Shown one piece after another: positions 14,291 through 25,936 of a stretch of 55,370 bases of DNA. This DNA comes from Lachnospiraceae bacterium NK4A179. GTDB lineage: Bacteria > Bacillota > Clostridia > Lachnospirales > Lachnospiraceae. The stretch's first letter is position 1. Each line of letters begins with the position of its first letter. The DNA is taken from assembly GCA_000421045.1 (NCBI GenBank), contig ATWC01000019.1, positions 1 to 55,370 on the forward strand, given 5' to 3'. Under the pieces are notes generated by a model. The model worked only from the letters and a program-made list of their open reading frames with translations, had not been told where the DNA came from and did no database searches. Position numbers and translations under genes: made by a program.

Positions 14291-14389
14291 CTCTTATTCA
14301 GAGTGGCGGAGGTACATAGGACCTGTGAAACCACGGCAACCCCTGAAAAGGAAGGTGCCAACCTGAGCGATGATTTCGAACAATAAGAG
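14291..14389 (+). ncRNA. SAM-I (S-box) riboswitch
   Basis: The S-box core is clear: P1 CTCTTATT (14291-14298) pairs with AATAAGAG (14382-14389); the segments AGAGTGGCGGAGG, CCTGTGAAACC, CGGCAACC, AAGGTGCCAACC and GAGCGA occur in the canonical order. It binds S-adenosylmethionine and is expected to stop transcription of metK through the terminator just downstream when SAM is plentiful. Confidence 0.95.
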
Positions 14390-14490: not shown

Positions 14491-15675
14491 ATGTCAGAAA
14501 AAAGATTGTTTACTTCAGAGTCCGTGACGGAAGGACATCCCGATAAGGTTTGTGATGCTATATCGGATGCTATCCTTGATGCCTGCATGGAAAAGGATCC
14601 TATGAGCCGTGTAGCCTGCGAGACGATGGCCTGCACAGGTTTCGTAGTTGTAACAGGTGAGATAACCACCAATGCCTATGTGGATATACAGAAGGTGGTA
14701 AGAGATACTGTTAAGGAGATCGGATATGACCGTTCCGAGTACGGTTTTGATGGAAATACCTGTGCTGTTTTCGTTGCTATAGACGAGCAGTCGGCTGATA
14801 TAGCCATGGGTGTTGATAAGGCGCTCGAAGCAAGAAATGGCGAGCTTAAGGATGAACTTGATACAGGCGCAGGTGATCAGGGAATGATGTTCGGCTATGC
14901 TACGAACGAGACTCCCGAACTTATGCCTTATCCTATCTCTCTTGCTCACAAGCTCACAAAGCAGCTTACAAAGGTACGTAAAGACGGCACACTTAAATAT
15001 CTCCGTCCTGACGGAAAGAGTCAGGTATCTGTTGAGTATGATGAGAATGGCAAGCCTGTACGTCTTGAGGCGGTTGTCCTTTCAACACAGCATGATGAGG
15101 ATGTGACACAGGAGCAGATCCACGAGGATATAAAGAAATATGTATTTGATCCTGTCCTTCCCAAGGAGATGGTCGATAAGGATACAAAGATATACATCAA
15201 TCCCACAGGTCGTTTTGTAATAGGCGGACCTCACGGTGATGCAGGTCTTACAGGAAGAAAGATCATAGTTGATACCTACGGCGGATATGCACGTCACGGC
15301 GGCGGAGCTTTCTCCGGAAAAGACTGCACAAAGGTTGACCGTTCTGCTGCATATGCTGCAAGATACGTTGCAAAGAATGTTGTTGCTTCAGGTCTTGCAG
15401 ATAAGTGCGAGATACAGCTCTCATACGCTATCGGTGTTGCTGAGCCCACATCCGTATCCGTAAATACAGACGGAACAGGAAAGCTTTCTGATGAGAAGAT
15501 CACAGAGATCATCAGAAAACATTTTGACCTTCGTCCGGCAGGCATCATAAAGATGCTCGATCTGCGCAGACCTATCTACAAGCAGACTGCGGCATATGGC
15601 CATTTCGGACGTGATGATCTGGATCTTCCCTGGGAGAAGACAGACAAGGCTGAGGAGCTTAAGAAATACCTTTGA
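14491..15675 (+). CDS. metK: S-adenosylmethionine synthetase
   Basis: Makes S-adenosylmethionine from methionine and ATP; 394 aa, normal length, cytosolic tetramer. Family motifs are intact: [17 protein letters not shown] near the N-terminus (ATP and Mg site), [12 protein letters not shown] (the conserved hexapeptide region) and GGGAFSGKD (phosphate-binding loop). AGGAGC lies 6 nt before the ATG. Regulation is by the SAM-I riboswitch in the leader, so product feedback is direct. The gene is monocistronic, with a terminator right after it. Confidence 0.98.
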
Positions 15676-17377: not shown

Positions 17378-17614
17378 ATGTTTGAACAGATAGCATGTAT
17401 ACTTTCTGATCTTACAGAGGGAGAAGTAAAGGCAACAGAGATCACAAGAGATACAAAACTGGTTGCTGATCTTGATCTTACCAGTCTTGATGTCGTCAAT
17501 GCGATCGTAGCTTTTGAAGACGAGTTCAATATCGAGATCCCCGATGACGAGATCAAGGATCTTGAAACAGCAGGCGACATTGAGGATGCACTCAAGAAGC
17601 TTGTAAACGAATGA
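17378..17614 (+). CDS. Acyl carrier protein
   Basis: A 78-residue, acidic four-helix carrier protein. S36 in LDLTSLDVV is the phosphopantetheine attachment site; TSLD replaces the commoner DSLD of primary-metabolism AcpP. GGAGG lies 7 nt before the ATG. It is paired with the adenylating enzyme directly upstream and not with fab genes, suggesting a dedicated carrier for the acyl group that enzyme activates. It could serve in lipid remodelling or a small biosynthetic pathway. Confidence 0.93.
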   Translation: MFEQIACILSDLTEGEVKATEITRDTKLVADLDLTSLDVVNAIVAFEDEFNIEIPDDEIKDLETAGDIEDALKKLVNE

Positions 17615-17622
17615 TCACCGAA

Positions 17623-17653
17623 AAGAAGCTGCCGCAGCGCAGCTTCTTTTTTT
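17623..17653 (+). terminator. Intrinsic terminator of the ligase-ACP operon
   Basis: AAGAAGCTGC (17623-17632) pairs with GCAGCTTCTT (17639-17648), followed by T5 more. Confidence 0.9.
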
Positions 17654-18041
17654 ACGCGCTGTAATTGATTCTTTGTTGCAGAGCTTTGGCGGCGTGTATG
17701 TGGTTTCTTCCGGACCCTCTATTAAGCCCGGGGACAGCTGCCAGGCCTTCGAAGTTCGACATTCGGTGCCAGCGCGCTCACTGTTCTCATGCTTGCTCCA
17801 TGCCCGGCCGACTTTAACGCACTCGCACGTCTGAAGGACGTGCTCGCTTGAACGGGTATCGTCTCAAAAATCGGTCCCGATGACCGATTTTTGCCGGGCA
17901 TTTTACTGCGCATTTCGAACGAGCGCGAAAGACCTTCGGTCTTTATGGCACCTCACGAATGAACTCCGAAGGCCTGGTAACTGTCCCGGGGCTTGATCGA
18001 CGTTGCGAATGAGTATCATACAGTGCTGTACAAAACGCAGA

Positions 18042-18087
18042 TTGCAGAGCAGGCGGTGTCTGTATGTGTTCGTTCCGGATCCCTGAG
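18042..18087 (+). repeat. Degenerate internal copy of the element's outer arm
   Basis: This stretch begins TTGCAGAGC exactly like 17676-17684 and keeps GGCGG, GTATGTG and TTCCGGA in order with small gaps. It is a direct repeat of the left arm and an inverted repeat of the right arm, so it could compete with the left arm for pairing. Confidence 0.6.
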
Positions 18088-18133
18088 CTGCGGAGATACA
18101 TTTCATGAGCAGATGCTCAGCGAACAGCGCATA

Positions 18134-18169
18134 AGAAAAAAGAAATCCCAACAGGGATTTCTTTTTTCT
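18134..18169 (+). terminator. 16-bp perfect hairpin inside the element
   Basis: AGAAAAAAGAAATCCC (18134-18149) pairs perfectly with 18154-18169 around an AACA loop. The 3' arm contains T6, so it may act as an intrinsic terminator, but the T tract is in the stem and not after it. Confidence 0.45.
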
Positions 18170-18299
18170 GCGGTGCGAGCGCTCGCTTGCGAAGGGTTCG
18201 GAAGGAACCACATACACGCCGCCAAAGCTCTGTAACAATACTTGAAACACAGCGCGGTCTGAACTCAGGAACATCCTTTCCCACTTAGGTCATAATACG

Positions 18300-18308
18300 T
18301 GCTAAAAT
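18300..18308 (+). promoter_or_regulatory. Extended -10 promoter of dnaE (leaderless)
   Basis: TGC-TAAAAT is an extended -10 box (TAAAAT 18303-18308). No good -35 is seen at 16-18 bp, as is common for extended -10 promoters. Six bases separate it from the dnaE ATG, so the predicted first transcribed base is the A of the start codon. Confidence 0.5.
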
Positions 18309-18314
18309 ATCACC

Positions 18315-21300
18315 ATGTCTTTTGTTCACTTACATACGCATACGGAATACAGCCTCTTAGACGGATCAAATAAGGTAAAGGATTATGTGAAACGGGTTAA
18401 GGAGCTTGGAATGACAGCGGCGGCGATCACCGATCACGGCGTTATGTACGGCGTTGTCGATTTTTATGAGGCCTGCAAAGCTGAGGGCATAAAGCCTGTG
18501 CTTGGCTGCGAGGTTTATGTTGCTCCGGGTTCGCGTTTTGCAAAGGAAGTTTCAGGCGGGGATGAACGTTATAACCATCTGATACTTTTGGCAGAAAATG
18601 ATACCGGATACCACAATCTGATGAGGCTTGTTTCCCTTGGCTTCACAGAGGGATTCTATTACCATCCGCGTGTGGACAGGGAGCTGCTTTCAAAGTATCA
18701 TGAGGGACTTATCTGCATGTCGGCTTGTCTGGCTGGCGAGGTGCCCAGGTTTATAGAAAAAGGCATGACAGATGAGGCGAGAGAGGCAGCGAAGTTCTAT
18801 AAAGATACATTCGGAGAAGGAAACTATTTCCTTGAGCTTCAGGATCACGGCATACCCATGCAGACAAAGGTTAATGCCGAGCTTGTGAAGATGAGCAGGG
18901 AACTTGATATACCGCTCGTTGCCACCAATGACTGTCATTACACGCTTGCGGAAGATGCCGATGCACATGATGTGCTGCTCTGTATCCAGACGAAGGCACT
19001 GCTCTCAGATGAGAACAGGATGCGCTATGAAGGCGGACAGTTCTATGTGAAGAGTGAAGCAGAGATGCGTAAACTCTTCCCTTATGCGGAAGAAGCGATA
19101 GAGAATACGCAGAAGATAGCAGACAGGTGTCATGTGGAGATACATTACAGGAAGCCGCTGCTTCCCAAGTATCCGATACCTGCAGATTTTGATGCGGATG
19201 CATATCTGAATGCCGCACCCAGAAAAGAATTCATTAATAAAGGTATAGAAGCCTATAAGAATGCACCGCCTTCCGAAGAAGATGACGGAGACTATGTGAC
19301 AACGCCTGAAGAATATATACGTTCATGGCTTTATCTCAATATGCTCTGCGATACCGGAATGGAAGAGCGCTACGCTGATCAGTTTAAGTTGTATAAGGAA
19401 GGAAGAGGTTCAGAACTTCCTGAAGGTGAAAAGGAAGGAAGTGCACTTCCCTGGCAGGGACTTACGGAGCGGCTTGAGTATGAGCTTGATGTTATCCGCA
19501 CGATGGATTTCGTCAACTATTTCCTTATAGTCTGGGATTATATTAATTTTGCAAAAGAGCATGGCATACCTGTAGGCCCCGGAAGAGGATCGGCTGCAGG
19601 CAGTCTTGTTTCATATACGATAAAGATAACGGATATTGATCCGATAAGATATCAGCTTCTGTTTGAACGTTTCCTCAATCCGGAACGTGTGTCCATGCCC
19701 GATATAGACGTGGACTTCTGCTACAACAGACGTGAGGAAGTCATAGATTATGTGCGCCGCAAATACGGTGAGGAAAGAGTCGTACAGATAGTAACTTTTG
19801 GTACGCTTCAGGCAAAGCAGGCATTAAAAGATGTAGGCCGCGCAATGGGTGTACCTTTTGACAGGTGCAATAAGCTTGCAAAGCTTGTTCCGAATGAACT
19901 GGGCATAACGCTTAACAGAGCACTTGAGATCAGTCCGGATCTCAGGGCAGAGTATGACAGTGATCCTACGGTAAAGCAGCTTATCGATTATGCTCTGAGA
20001 CTCGAAGGACTTCCGAGACAGACAGGTATGCATGCAGCGGGTGTTGTTATATGTCCTAAGCCTGCCCAGGAGATGGTACCCCTGAGCCTTGGCGGAGACA
20101 ATGCGGTGACTGCCCAGTTTACGATGACGACACTTGAACCGTTAGGACTTCTTAAGATGGACTTTCTGGGACTCCGTACCCTTACTGTTATCAAGGATAC
20201 GCTTCTTAACATAGAGCATTCCACGGGAAAGAAGATAGATATAAATCACATAGACATGAATGATAAAAAAGTCTATGCTTCGCTTTCAACAGGCGACTGC
20301 ACAGGCGTGTTCCAGCTTGAGAGCGCGGGTATGACATCGTTTATGAAAACGCTGAAACCCGGCAATCTTGAAGATGTCATAGCCGGTATATCTCTTTATC
20401 GTCCGGGACCTATGGATTTCATACCTAAATATCTTGCAGGTAAGAATGATCCTTCTTCAATAAAATACGAATGCCCGGAGCTTGAACCCATTCTTAAGCC
20501 GACATATGGATGTATAGTCTACCAGGAGCAGGTTATGCAGATAGTGCGTGATCTGGCAGGCTTCTCCATGGGACGTTCCGATAATGTGCGCCGTGCCATG
20601 AGTAAGAAAAAACAGTATGTCATGGAGCATGAAAGACAGATATTCATATACGGAAATGAGACCGAGATAGAAGAAGCAAAGGCCGGCAATATCCCTGAAG
20701 ATCAGTGGCCGAAGCCGGTTCCGGGATGTGTGAATAACGGTATTTCGGAAGAGGCTGCGGGACACATATATGACTTGATGATCGATTTCGCCAAGTATGC
20801 GTTTAATAAATCGCATGCAGCTTGCTATGCGGTGGTCGGTTACCAGACTGCCTGGCTGAAATACTATTATCCGCTGGAATTCATGGCGGCTATCATGACA
20901 AGTGTGATGGGAGCTTCGGATAAGCTTGCTGCATATCTTATGTATATAAGACAGGCGGGGCTTAAGCTTTCACCGCCTGATGTGAATGCCGGTGGCGTTG
21001 ATTTTTCCGTTGAGGATGGAAGCATATACTATGCGCTTACAGCTATAAAGGGCATAGGCGCAGGCCTTGCAGAGAAGATAGTAGAAGAGCGTGAAGAGCA
21101 TGGACCTTACAGGAACTTCAAGGATTTTGTGGAACGCACGGCAGACATGAACCTTAACAAGGATGCGCTTGAGAACCTTGTGAAGGCTGGAGCTCTGGAT
21201 TCGCTCGGTATGACGCGCAAGGAGATGATATTTGTTGGTCCTGATATAGTTGCTGCTGTCATGGCGGAAAGAAAGAAGAGCATGTCGGGGCAGATGAGCC

Positions 21301-23082: not shown

Positions 23083-23852
23083 TTACATCCGCATCAAATG
23101 AAAAAGTAAAACATCTGATACAGTTAAGAGAAAAGGGAAAGGTCCGCCGTAAGGAGGGCCTTTTTATTGCTGAAGGGATCAGACTTGTAAGGGACATCCC
23201 CGAAGGGGATACGGTTGAGCTGTACTATTCCGAAAGCTATGAAGGGGAACGTGCTGCCGGGAAGTATGAGGTCCTTTCGGATGAGCTTTTTAAAAAAGTA
23301 TCCGACACGGAAACTCCGCAGGGAGTGCTTGCTGTTGTGAGGATGCGAAAAAGTACATCTGCTGATATAATTAATGCTGTAAAGAACCCCATGATACTGC
23401 TTCTTGAGAATATACAGGATCCGGGTAACATGGGAACTATGTTCAGAACCGCTGAAGCGGCAGGCTGCTCCGGCATCATCATGACAGAAGGATCTGCAGA
23501 TCCTTATTCACCCAAGGTGGTGCGTTCAGCTATGGGAGCACTTTTCAGGCTTCCGTTTGCAGCTGTCGCTGATTGGGATGATGTATTTGCGGAGCTTGGA
23601 AAAGCAGATGTGAAGATATTTGCGGCGGCGCTTACAGGCGCAGTGCCTTATACGAAAGCTGTCTGCACAGGTCCTTCCGCCTTTCTTATCGGAAATGAAG
23701 GAAACGGGCTTAGGGAAGAGACTATAGGAAAAGTGACAGACTGCGGCGGCGAATGCATAAAGATCCCCATGGCAGGGAAGACAGAATCATTAAACGCGGC
23801 TGTAAGCGCTGCAGTGCTTATGTATGAAGCTGCAAGACAGAGAGGAATGTGA
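23079..23852 (+). CDS. TrmH/SpoU-family RNA 2'-O-methyltransferase
   Basis: A 257-residue SPOUT enzyme that methylates a ribose 2'-OH in rRNA or tRNA using SAM. An N-terminal substrate-binding domain (about 1-95) is followed by the knotted SpoU domain with its three motifs: LLENIQDPGNMGTMFRTAEA (motif 1, N and R), FLIGNEGNGLREE (motif 2) and IPMAGKTESLNAAVSAAVLMYEA (motif 3, S-adenosylmethionine knot). It resembles the RlmB/TsnR-like group, but the target base cannot be assigned. It overlaps pfkA by 4 bp and its TGA overlaps the next ATG (TGATG). Confidence 0.93.
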   Translation: MITSASNEKVKHLIQLREKGKVRRKEGLFIAEGIRLVRDIPEGDTVELYYSESYEGERAAGKYEVLSDELFKKVSDTETPQGVLAVVRMRKSTSADIINAVKNPMILLLENIQDPGNMGTMFRTAEAAGCSGIIMTEGSADPYSPKVVRSAMGALFRLPFAAVADWDDVFAELGKADVKIFAAALTGAVPYTKAVCTGPSAFLIGNEGNGLREETIGKVTDCGGECIKIPMAGKTESLNAAVSAAVLMYEAARQRGM

Positions 23853-25936
23853 TGGAAGAAGTAAACATAAGCAGTACGGAACGTATAAATGGAAAAGTAA
23901 AGGTTTTTTATGGCAACAAAGGGTATGGTTTTTTTGAGTACGATGGAAATCAGCTCTTTTTTCATGTAAACCAGATGATCAAAAGAAAACGCAGGATCAG
24001 AAAGGGTGATAATGCAAGCTTTGTTGTAATAGAAACCGAATCGGGCATACAGGCAGGGGAAATACTTTTTGAAGATGCCGGAGCAGAGACTGAAATAAAT
24101 GAAAATGAATCATTTGCCGACACCGTAAAGGAAGATGCAGTTACGCTTTTGGAAATTGCAGAAAAGGAAAATGATACTGAGGTTCAGGAGACGGCTTTGT
24201 TTTCTGAAGATAAAGTGATGATAACTGCTGCAGGTGATAAGGAAATTGCAGCTGAAACAAAGAAAGAGAAGACAGCAAAGAAGTCACGTTCCAAAAAGAA
24301 AAAAACTGAAATAAAAGAAACTGAAGTAAAAGCCGAAGAAAAAACTGAAGATAAGAAAGAAGAAAAAATAGAAGAGAAAACAGAAAGCTCACAGAAAAAA
24401 TCTGCTTTCGAAGAAAAGAAGAACTCAGCTAAAGCTTCGGAGAAGAAAAAAGCAGAGAAGAAAGGTGGCGCAAATAAAGAATCTGCAGCTAAAGCAGCCA
24501 CAAATAAAGCCGCTACTGTCAAAGATACTACAAATAAAGATACTACAACAAATAAAGAAGCTTCAGATAAAGAAGCTTCAGATAAAGATACTTCGAATAA
24601 AGAAGTATCAGATAAAGAGGTTTCAAATAAAGAATCTTCCAATAAACAAACTTCAAATAAGTCCTCATCACATAAAACAACTCAGGGAAAGTCTGCTCAG
24701 TCAAAGGAGCCGCCTAAGAAAAATACTGAGAAGAATCAGGAAAAAAATCAGGATAAAAGACCTTCATCACTGGGCAGGAGTAAGGCTGATGCCAGACAGA
24801 AGAAGGATGAAGGTGAGAGAGGCGTTGATTATCAGCTTGGATGGCTCGGTGAAGGTTATCTTGCAGTGAAAAAGGATTGTGTCGGAAAGTACAGTCTTGG
24901 ACAGGCAAAGAATATCCTGCTTGCTCATCCTGCGTTTCCGGAACCTCAGGAGATAGATGAGATAGTCATCTCCACTAAGGGCATATTCGTTATCGAAACA
25001 AAACGTTTCAGCGGAGAGCTGACTATAAATAAAAACGGCAACTGGATCTTTTCAAACGGAAAGACCAGACAGAGTCTTACAGGCCCGGTTGCACAGGCAC
25101 TCAGACATCACATACTTCTTCAGACCATACTCAAAGGTGTTGTTCCCGATAAATATATCTACGATATCATCTGTATCGCTAAGGGCGATGTTATCATAGA
25201 GGGTGAAGAGAACTGTCCTATCCCGGTAATGAAAGTTGATATGCTCAACTATCGTATCCTTACGGCTGAAGGTAAGGCCGAAAATGATCTGGATATAAAA
25301 ATGATAGAAGAAAAGATCAACGAAAGCAAAGTTGTCTGGGATCCTTCATCAAATTCATATGTAAAGATGAGTGAGATGGAAAAACGAAAGAGTGAAGCAG
25401 CTGCGAAGAGATCTGCAATTGCTGAGGTTATCGAAGAGGCTGCAGAAGTTGAGGATGAAGCAGCATCGAAAAGCAGACTCGCAAAGAAGAGTACTGTAAA
25501 GAAGAATGCTGCAAAGAAGAGTGCCGTAAGGAAAAGTGCTGTAAATAAAACTGAAACAAATAAATCTGTTGATAAAAAAGTTTCCGAGAAAAAATCTTCT
25601 GACAAAAAAACTTCAGATAAACAGGCAGCTGCAAAAAAGACCACAGTAAAAATGAATGCAGATAAAAAAACTTCAGATAAAAAGTCTTCAGAGAAGAAGA
25701 CTGCTGTAAAGAAAACAACAGCAAAGAATACCACTGCAAAAAAGACTGAGACAAAAAAGACTGCGGTAAAGAAGACAGCAGCAAAGAATACTACGGCAAA
25801 GAAAACATCAGATAAGACGGCGGCGGTTAAGAAAACCGTAACTAAAACCCCTGCTGCAAAAAAGACGACTGCCGGGAAATCTGATGCAAAGAAAACAGAT
25901 ATAAAGAAAACTAAAACATCCGTAAAAAAGAAATGA
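23852..25936 (+). CDS. Cold-shock-domain / NERD nuclease-like / histone H1-like fusion
   Basis: A 694-residue protein with an unusual order of parts. Residues 11-72 form a cold-shock (OB) domain with RNP1-like KGYGFFEY and RNP2-like LFFHV. Residues 130-320 are a Lys-rich, disordered tract including seven five-residue repeats at 236-270. Residues about 325-430 are a NERD domain (nuclease-related) with GEGYLAVKK, D369 and the E382-x-K384 of a PD-(D/E)xK-like site. Residues 541-694 are an Ala/Lys/Thr tail like bacterial histone H1/Hc1. The ATG at 23852 overlaps the methyltransferase stop and has GAGG 6 nt upstream; GTG 23849 is the alternative. A nucleic-acid-bound nuclease or nucleoid/RNA protein is inferred; activity is unproven. 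Confidence 0.88.
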   Translation: MEEVNISSTERINGKVKVFYGNKGYGFFEYDGNQLFFHVNQMIKRKRRIRKGDNASFVVIETESGIQAGEILFEDAGAETEINENESFADTVKEDAVTLLEIAEKENDTEVQETALFSEDKVMITAAGDKEIAAETKKEKTAKKSRSKKKKTEIKETEVKAEEKTEDKKEEKIEEKTESSQKKSAFEEKKNSAKASEKKKAEKKGGANKESAAKAATNKAATVKDTTNKDTTTNKEASDKEASDKDTSNKEVSDKEVSNKESSNKQTSNKSSSHKTTQGKSAQSKEPPKKNTEKNQEKNQDKRPSSLGRSKADARQKKDEGERGVDYQLGWLGEGYLAVKKDCVGKYSLGQAKNILLAHPAFPEPQEIDEIVISTKGIFVIETKRFSGELTINKNGNWIFSNGKTRQSLTGPVAQALRHHILLQTILKGVVPDKYIYDIICIAKGDVIIEGEENCPIPVMKVDMLNYRILTAEGKAENDLDIKMIEEKINESKVVWDPSSNSYVKMSEMEKRKSEAAAKRSAIAEVIEEAAEVEDEAASKSRLAKKSTVKKNAAKKSAVRKSAVNKTETNKSVDKKVSEKKSSDKKTSDKQAAAKKTTVKMNADKKTSDKKSSEKKTAVKKTTAKNTTAKKTETKKTAVKKTAAKNTTAKKTSDKTAAVKKTVTKTPAAKKTTAGKSDAKKTDIKKTKTSVKKK
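24557..24661 (+). repeat. Seven 15-bp in-frame repeats coding pentapeptides
   Basis: Units encode (E/D/Q)-(A/T/V/S)-S-(D/N)-K seven times in a row within the first Lys-rich tract of the CSD-NERD protein. The copies differ at wobble positions, so they are not a recent slippage product. Confidence 0.8.

Follow-up and report, generated by a model that had tools for sequence, protein, structure and literature searches.

An intergenic block of nested inverted repeats, lying between an acyl-carrier-protein-like (ACP) gene and dnaE of Lachnospiraceae bacterium NK4A179, is a composite of two palindromic modules, A and B, and half of an additional module A. It is located on contig ATWC01000019.1, whose positions 1 to 55,370 are called here the window. 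The modules are probably members of a genus-limited family of non-autonomous, hairpin-forming, palindromic intergenic dispersed repeats that perhaps spread in trans. This reading is supported because pieces of the block recur at many unlinked intergenic places of the own genome. It is further carried by a site that holds the repeat in two species but not in others, by modules that occur in varying combination and orientation, and by a stem that combines compensatory changes with persistent mismatches. The A and B repeats are best read as a new family, comparable to REPINs, BOX and ERIC.

A composite block rather than one element

The original prediction, made from the letters of the window, had described a single non-coding element at 17673-18238, not recognised as any known family and resembling either a large ornate RNA or a miniature inverted-repeat transposable element (MITE). 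Its inverted arms are real: 43 of 46 positions match between 17673-17718 and 18193-18238, and 54 of 65 when the arms are widened to 17654-17718 and 18193-18257. In 40 Markov shuffles of the 1101-nt region, inverted 46-nt stretches matched at 30 positions at best. The second long stem, the hairpins and the 16-bp hairpin are also present in the block. Folding of 17640-18270 gave z-scores of -15.8 for the plus strand and -20.6 for the minus strand, with none of 20 shuffles equalling either. The edges lie slightly further out than proposed (about 17654 and 18258-18262), as indicated by the ends common to other copies, and the block is not a single element: from left to right it contains an arm called R', module B and module A (Table 1). 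The outer stem is nearly perfect because R' repeats the module A right arm in reverse complement, with an 84% inverted match to 18193-18256; BLAST with the A copy of contig C2 gave a minus-strand match at 17654-17692.

Open reading frames (ORFs) of 63, 80 and 123 amino acids, attributed to chance, run over parts of the block. The description as non-coding nevertheless stands for module A, for which a protein-coding role was rejected, since no reading frame is open through its core in more than 4 of 15 copies. No Rfam family was found within the element when the whole window was searched at gathering score; at E values up to 1, the region 17400-18500 gave only mir-1252, far below its own gathering score.

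Copies of modules A and B in the NK4A179 genome

A BLAST search of the own genome with 17640-18270 produced 27 matches, 6 within the window (the self match and internal inverted matches) and 21 elsewhere. The assembly consists of 73 contigs, several of which end inside copies. The ends of C63 and C52, C59 and C47, and C15 and C29 overlap exactly (by 285, 320 and 343 bases, respectively), so that each pair was taken as one locus; C49 and C27 share 107 bases, but C49 fits the C29 end equally well over this stretch, and the C49/C27 pairing was obtained by elimination. Module A is present in 11 full-length copies according to model R1, with a terminal fragment in C1. Module B has three full copies (window, C59/C47 and C63/C52): those outside the window match it at 92-94% within 17745-17973 in BLAST, and model R3 matches window 17758-17964 on the minus strand. 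The block is therefore not a single-copy RNA gene.

The modules are combined in different ways. A occurs without B in C2, B without A in C63, and R', B and A together in the window. B precedes A in both the window and C59, but in C59 it is flipped relative to A as compared to the window. At the C15 locus an inverted arm stands before A (arm pair L018:1594-1654 / 1902-1962), and the stretch separating this arm from A resembles, by eye, a remnant of B; short B-end remnants, seen by eye only, precede A in C49 and C10. In C10, a shortened second A hairpin (L014:1578-1715) lies immediately behind the full A copy. Searches for homology between the two modules were negative, covariance model R2 giving no B match (9 sources) and R3 no A match (14 sources). 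As these models do not find each other's module, the likeness of A and B in their G.A mismatches is a by-eye resemblance only.

By eye, the flanking ORFs are different genes at every site (the upstream side of C26a being cut off by a contig end), and none of them looked like a transposase. Pfam named 8 of the 9 flanking proteins that were scanned, for example GATase (purF-like), isocitrate dehydrogenase, tRNA methyl transferase, type III glutamine synthetase and BipA/TypA. On one side, the copies in C2 and C26b extend as far as a neighbouring gene's stop codon. The orientation of the copies relative to neighbouring genes was examined, the sites being too few for a judgement.

Relatives and the serA site

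Models R1 and R2 were used to search 35 genomes of the genus, the own genome and 34 congeners. Besides the own genome, module A is clearly present only in G003 and G027, with two copies each, behind serA; G020 gave one weak match (E 0.68). Ten serA loci were read, of which 8 were readable and 2 had no readable gene end. The array follows the serA terminator directly in G003 and G027, and the site is without the array in the own genome and in G034, G008, G026, G002 and G020. In both occupied loci (L069:974-1708 and L070:1040-1706), 82-nt tandem half-A repeats adjoin the full A copies.

The relatives' A copies were missed by BLAST alone, which found in 60 genomes only a 51-nt B fragment in G027, and model R3 located module B in the own genome only. 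Among named genomes, an exact-pattern scan matched a single record, that of Lachnospiraceae bacterium XPB1003, which from a common fragment is presumably G027. Under strict filters, an order-wide search matched 1 of 295 genomes, the own one; with 8 candidates scored per genome and 8 of the 11 own copies recovered, this search is weak evidence for absence. No match to 17640-18270 was obtained in phage and plasmid records (distant blastn), nor to two exact patterns, one per module, in viral contigs. Searches of an open-access library for this or similar families, for XPB1003 and for terminator insertion brought up no paper describing the repeat.

Compensatory changes and persistent mismatches in the module A stem

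The predicted stem of module A is maintained in its 15 copies from three genomes. Standard pairs fill 97.3% of the cells (88.2% in shuffles), double-changed cells number 56 (18.4 in shuffles, no more than 7 when partners are slid), and a covariation score of 0.330 compares with 0.162 in shuffles. Between the own consensus and that of the relatives, 31 of 86 paired positions differ and all 43 pairs are kept, 12 of them changed on both sides, with a structure drawn from both groups. The fairer test takes the structure from the own copies alone: of its 55 pairs, 6 are gapped in the relatives and were set aside, and 40 of the 49 testable ones are kept, including 11 of 14 changed on both sides and 6 of 12 changed on one side. 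The nine broken pairs lie at the stem foot (columns 6-24, an alignment gap of the relatives) and in a side hairpin (columns 65-76). The tip hairpin, absent in C9, has several different sequences among the copies, each of them well paired.

Certain mismatches are also maintained. Columns 80-81/138-139 form G.A and A.G, and column 85/134 G.G, in 15 of 15 copies; columns 42-43/152-153 likewise form G.A and A.G in 14 copies, the exception being C6 with G.G and A.G, so that no copy has a standard pair at any of these positions. Further unpaired positions vary more: column 29/166 is A.G or G.G in 14 copies and paired in one, 34/161 has G.A in 12 copies and a gap in 3, and pyrimidine mismatches stand at 46/149 and 37/158. 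As a motif, tandem G.A pairs are stable, and the opposite strand would carry C.T instead. That the tandem G.A-type mismatches persist suggests that the fold is one of a single strand with a definite polarity. In line with this, each of the 6 modules folded was more stable on the predicted strand than on the complementary one, the difference being 2.5 to 16.6 kcal/mol; for module B, the minus strand reaches -154.0 kcal/mol and the plus strand -148.3 kcal/mol, and the minus strand shows by eye a similar G.A mismatch pair between short stems.

One could imagine that selection plays no part here and that the modules are passive palindromes whose complementarity is kept by template switching between the arms. 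The core of module B is about 97% identical between copies, and its arms in the window have diverged strongly from those elsewhere without losing their pairing, as this process would produce. However, arm-to-arm copying should erase mismatches, whereas the same ones persist in all 15 A copies of the three genomes while neighbouring pairs have changed, which makes this explanation highly improbable.

The persistent G.A-type and G.G mismatches, the pairs conserved across species and the more stable predicted strand would also be expected if A, and perhaps B, were functional structured RNAs that form a small family, transcribed independently or from the 3' ends of genes and multiplied by duplication, with mobility being secondary. 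We regard this possibility as unlikely. There is no Rfam match, promoter-like sites are not above chance, and the own copies have no neighbouring gene in common. Clear matches are limited to 3 of the 35 genus genomes and, under strict filters, to one of the 295 genomes of the order. Moreover, according to PMC3116915 and PMC2229807, REPINs, which are described as mobile DNA, also show compensatory changes, and stems of known bacterial repeats are described with A-G mispairs. The ornate-RNA proposal is retained for a maintained single-strand fold, indicated by the cross-species covariation and the persistent mismatches, and abandoned as to membership in a known RNA family.

Possible spread of the modules and terminators near their sites

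Ten sites were inspected for target-site duplication. The longest common words had 3-5 nt and were equalled in length by 34 to 293 of 300 shuffles, the element edges being uncertain by some bases in this test. This bears on the possibility that the modules are classical MITEs, i.e. derived by deletion from an insertion sequence whose terminal inverted repeats they share. The family does resemble MITEs in its terminal inverted repeats (perfect over 13 nt in the C2 copy), its small size, the lack of a conserved ORF and several dispersed copies. On the other hand, no duplication stands out at the ten sites, and no gene-carrying element was recognised among the 19 BLAST places of an A copy, several contigs ending inside copies. 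In addition, the GC content is 52.9%, above the 44.9% of the window, whereas MITEs are typically AT-rich according to PMC10969869. A MITE in the strict sense is thus very unlikely; what remains of that proposal is the dispersed repeat.

Several results also weigh against a mobile repeat family spread in trans. Besides the missing target duplication, two of the five covariation measures did not beat the shuffle control: 13 pairs were changed on both sides as compared to 10.7 in shuffles (51 of 500 as high), and 27 further pair types were found as compared to 29.0 (467 of 500 as high). Since the four copies of the relatives are nearly alike, the covariation mostly reflects one split. The window site has no clean empty counterpart: G020 has an ACP/dnaE overlap (see below), and the other 28 congener loci with dnaE have no ACP gene upstream within the sequence stretch examined. 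Finally, the own genome has two Y1 (IS200-like) transposase genes, and only chance-level matches to A or B were found around both of them (about 1.5 kb on each side, BLAST E up to 10). Y1 transposase was considered as a partner and rejected, the genes being present without a bordering A or B. By eye, the Y1 gene L149:1093-1848 has on both sides a different palindrome containing GGACGGGGTTAGGGGG, possibly its own REP.

Strong hairpin-plus-T sites were found by script 2 nt from the element in the window, at 14 nt in C6, 6 nt in C9 and 13 nt in C1, and at 4-6 nt behind serA in G003 and G027; one more at C63/C52, missed by the script, was seen by eye. Of 14 independent sites, 6 thus have a strong terminator near the element, a count that leaves out weaker script matches (scores 11-19) and stands without a background rate. 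In C2, the element takes up the space between two convergent genes, where the script finds no other terminator. A consensus scan found terminator-like sites in the window region no commoner than in shuffles and did not include the tip hairpin of module A (18134-18169) among its sites. For 17621-17650, the script gave a plus-strand terminator and the consensus scan a minus-strand site only. There is only a hint that the modules settle just behind terminators. A group IIC intron was considered because of this neighbourhood and dropped because there is no Rfam match.

For a repeat family spread in trans, an enzyme supplied elsewhere would recognise the single-strand hairpin and spread copies, as proposed for REPINs. 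A transcribed copy might fold into a long hairpin with a terminator-like tip, ending or shielding transcripts on either side, and a transcribed module could act as a strong, partly two-way transcript end. A bolder proposal, which we consider rather doubtful, is a new class of mobile structured RNA, in which a transcript-borne hairpin with two tandem G.A motifs would spread through gene gaps, often behind terminators, and would end transcripts in both directions wherever it settles.

This family bears on the open question of how large palindromic repeats can spread when no transposase is visible, and of why their folds persist: it provides many copies within a single genome, another lineage whose stems have diverged, and a serA site both occupied and unoccupied. 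The polar, persistent mismatches predict which features a protein or RNA fold would need to recognise.

Features of the block and other observations in the window

Table 1. Positions of the features in and beside the composite block
Feature	Position	Strand	Description
Presumed ACP-gene terminator	17621..17650	+	12-bp perfect stem then T run; directly before the element, outside it
Composite block	~17654 to 18258-18262		gap between ACP gene and dnaE; edges from similar ends of other copies
R' arm	17654..17718	+	reverse complement of module A right arm; additional half-element closing the composite
Second (inner) stem	17706-17757 / 17961-18012		79% inverted match
Outer arms of module B	17718-17757 / 17961-18000		pair with each other
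Module B	17722..18000	- (structured strand probably minus)	one of 3 full genome copies
Module B tip hairpin	17865..17893		perfect, 12 bp; from repeat finding
Spacer between B and A	18001..18021	+	by eye, a related spacer precedes some other A copies and adjoins B in C63
Module A	18022..18262	+	one of 11 full-length genome copies; models R1 and R2 match 18044-18233
Module A tip hairpin	18134..18169		16 bp, perfect; flanked on both strands by A-rich and T-rich stretches
R arm of module A	18193..18257	+	can pair with R' (17654-17718) or with the A left arm (from ~18044)

The upstream neighbour was named ACP from its look and from the original prediction, Pfam giving no match at 1e-10; the downstream neighbour, dnaE, has the Pfam domains of DNA polymerase III alpha. 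In G020 (L090:1265-1510), the ACP stop codon overlaps the dnaE start codon, and in the window 700 bases lie between the two genes. Elsewhere in the window, a SAM riboswitch (RF00162, 73 bits) at 14291-14389 precedes the gene 14491-15675, which by eye resembles metK, and the ORF 23849-25936 has long repetitive stretches rich in lysine and threonine.

Comparison with known systems

GOLLD and ROOL are large ornate RNAs with a multi-branched predicted fold. The block shares with them its large size and a fold of this kind, but consists of dispersed multicopy modules; membership in GOLLD, ROOL or any other Rfam family was rejected, as no covariance model matched. Like the present family, ERIC/IRU and NEMIS/Correia are long palindromes with stem mispairs, and their transcripts have been proposed to affect neighbouring mRNAs; PMC2229807 lists target duplications for both, whereas none was found here. 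SPRITE elements, as described in PMC3049150, share a terminator-like hairpin near gene ends, but here the terminator-like tip belongs to a long branched stem.

BOX elements of Streptococcus pneumoniae were compared by description, without direct sequence comparison. BOX is reported to have target duplications, which were not found here. PMC3049150 presents BOX, like the present family, as modular composites in varying combination, with strong folding, occurring mainly in one species and its near relatives. REPINs differ in that the modules are here branched and about 190-290 nt long, and in that the bordering of a RAYT-type gene is not seen for the two Y1 genes. They nevertheless provide a parallel: Y1-type genes also occur in this genome, and REPIN hairpins, as set out in PMC3116915, are likewise kept through compensatory changes.
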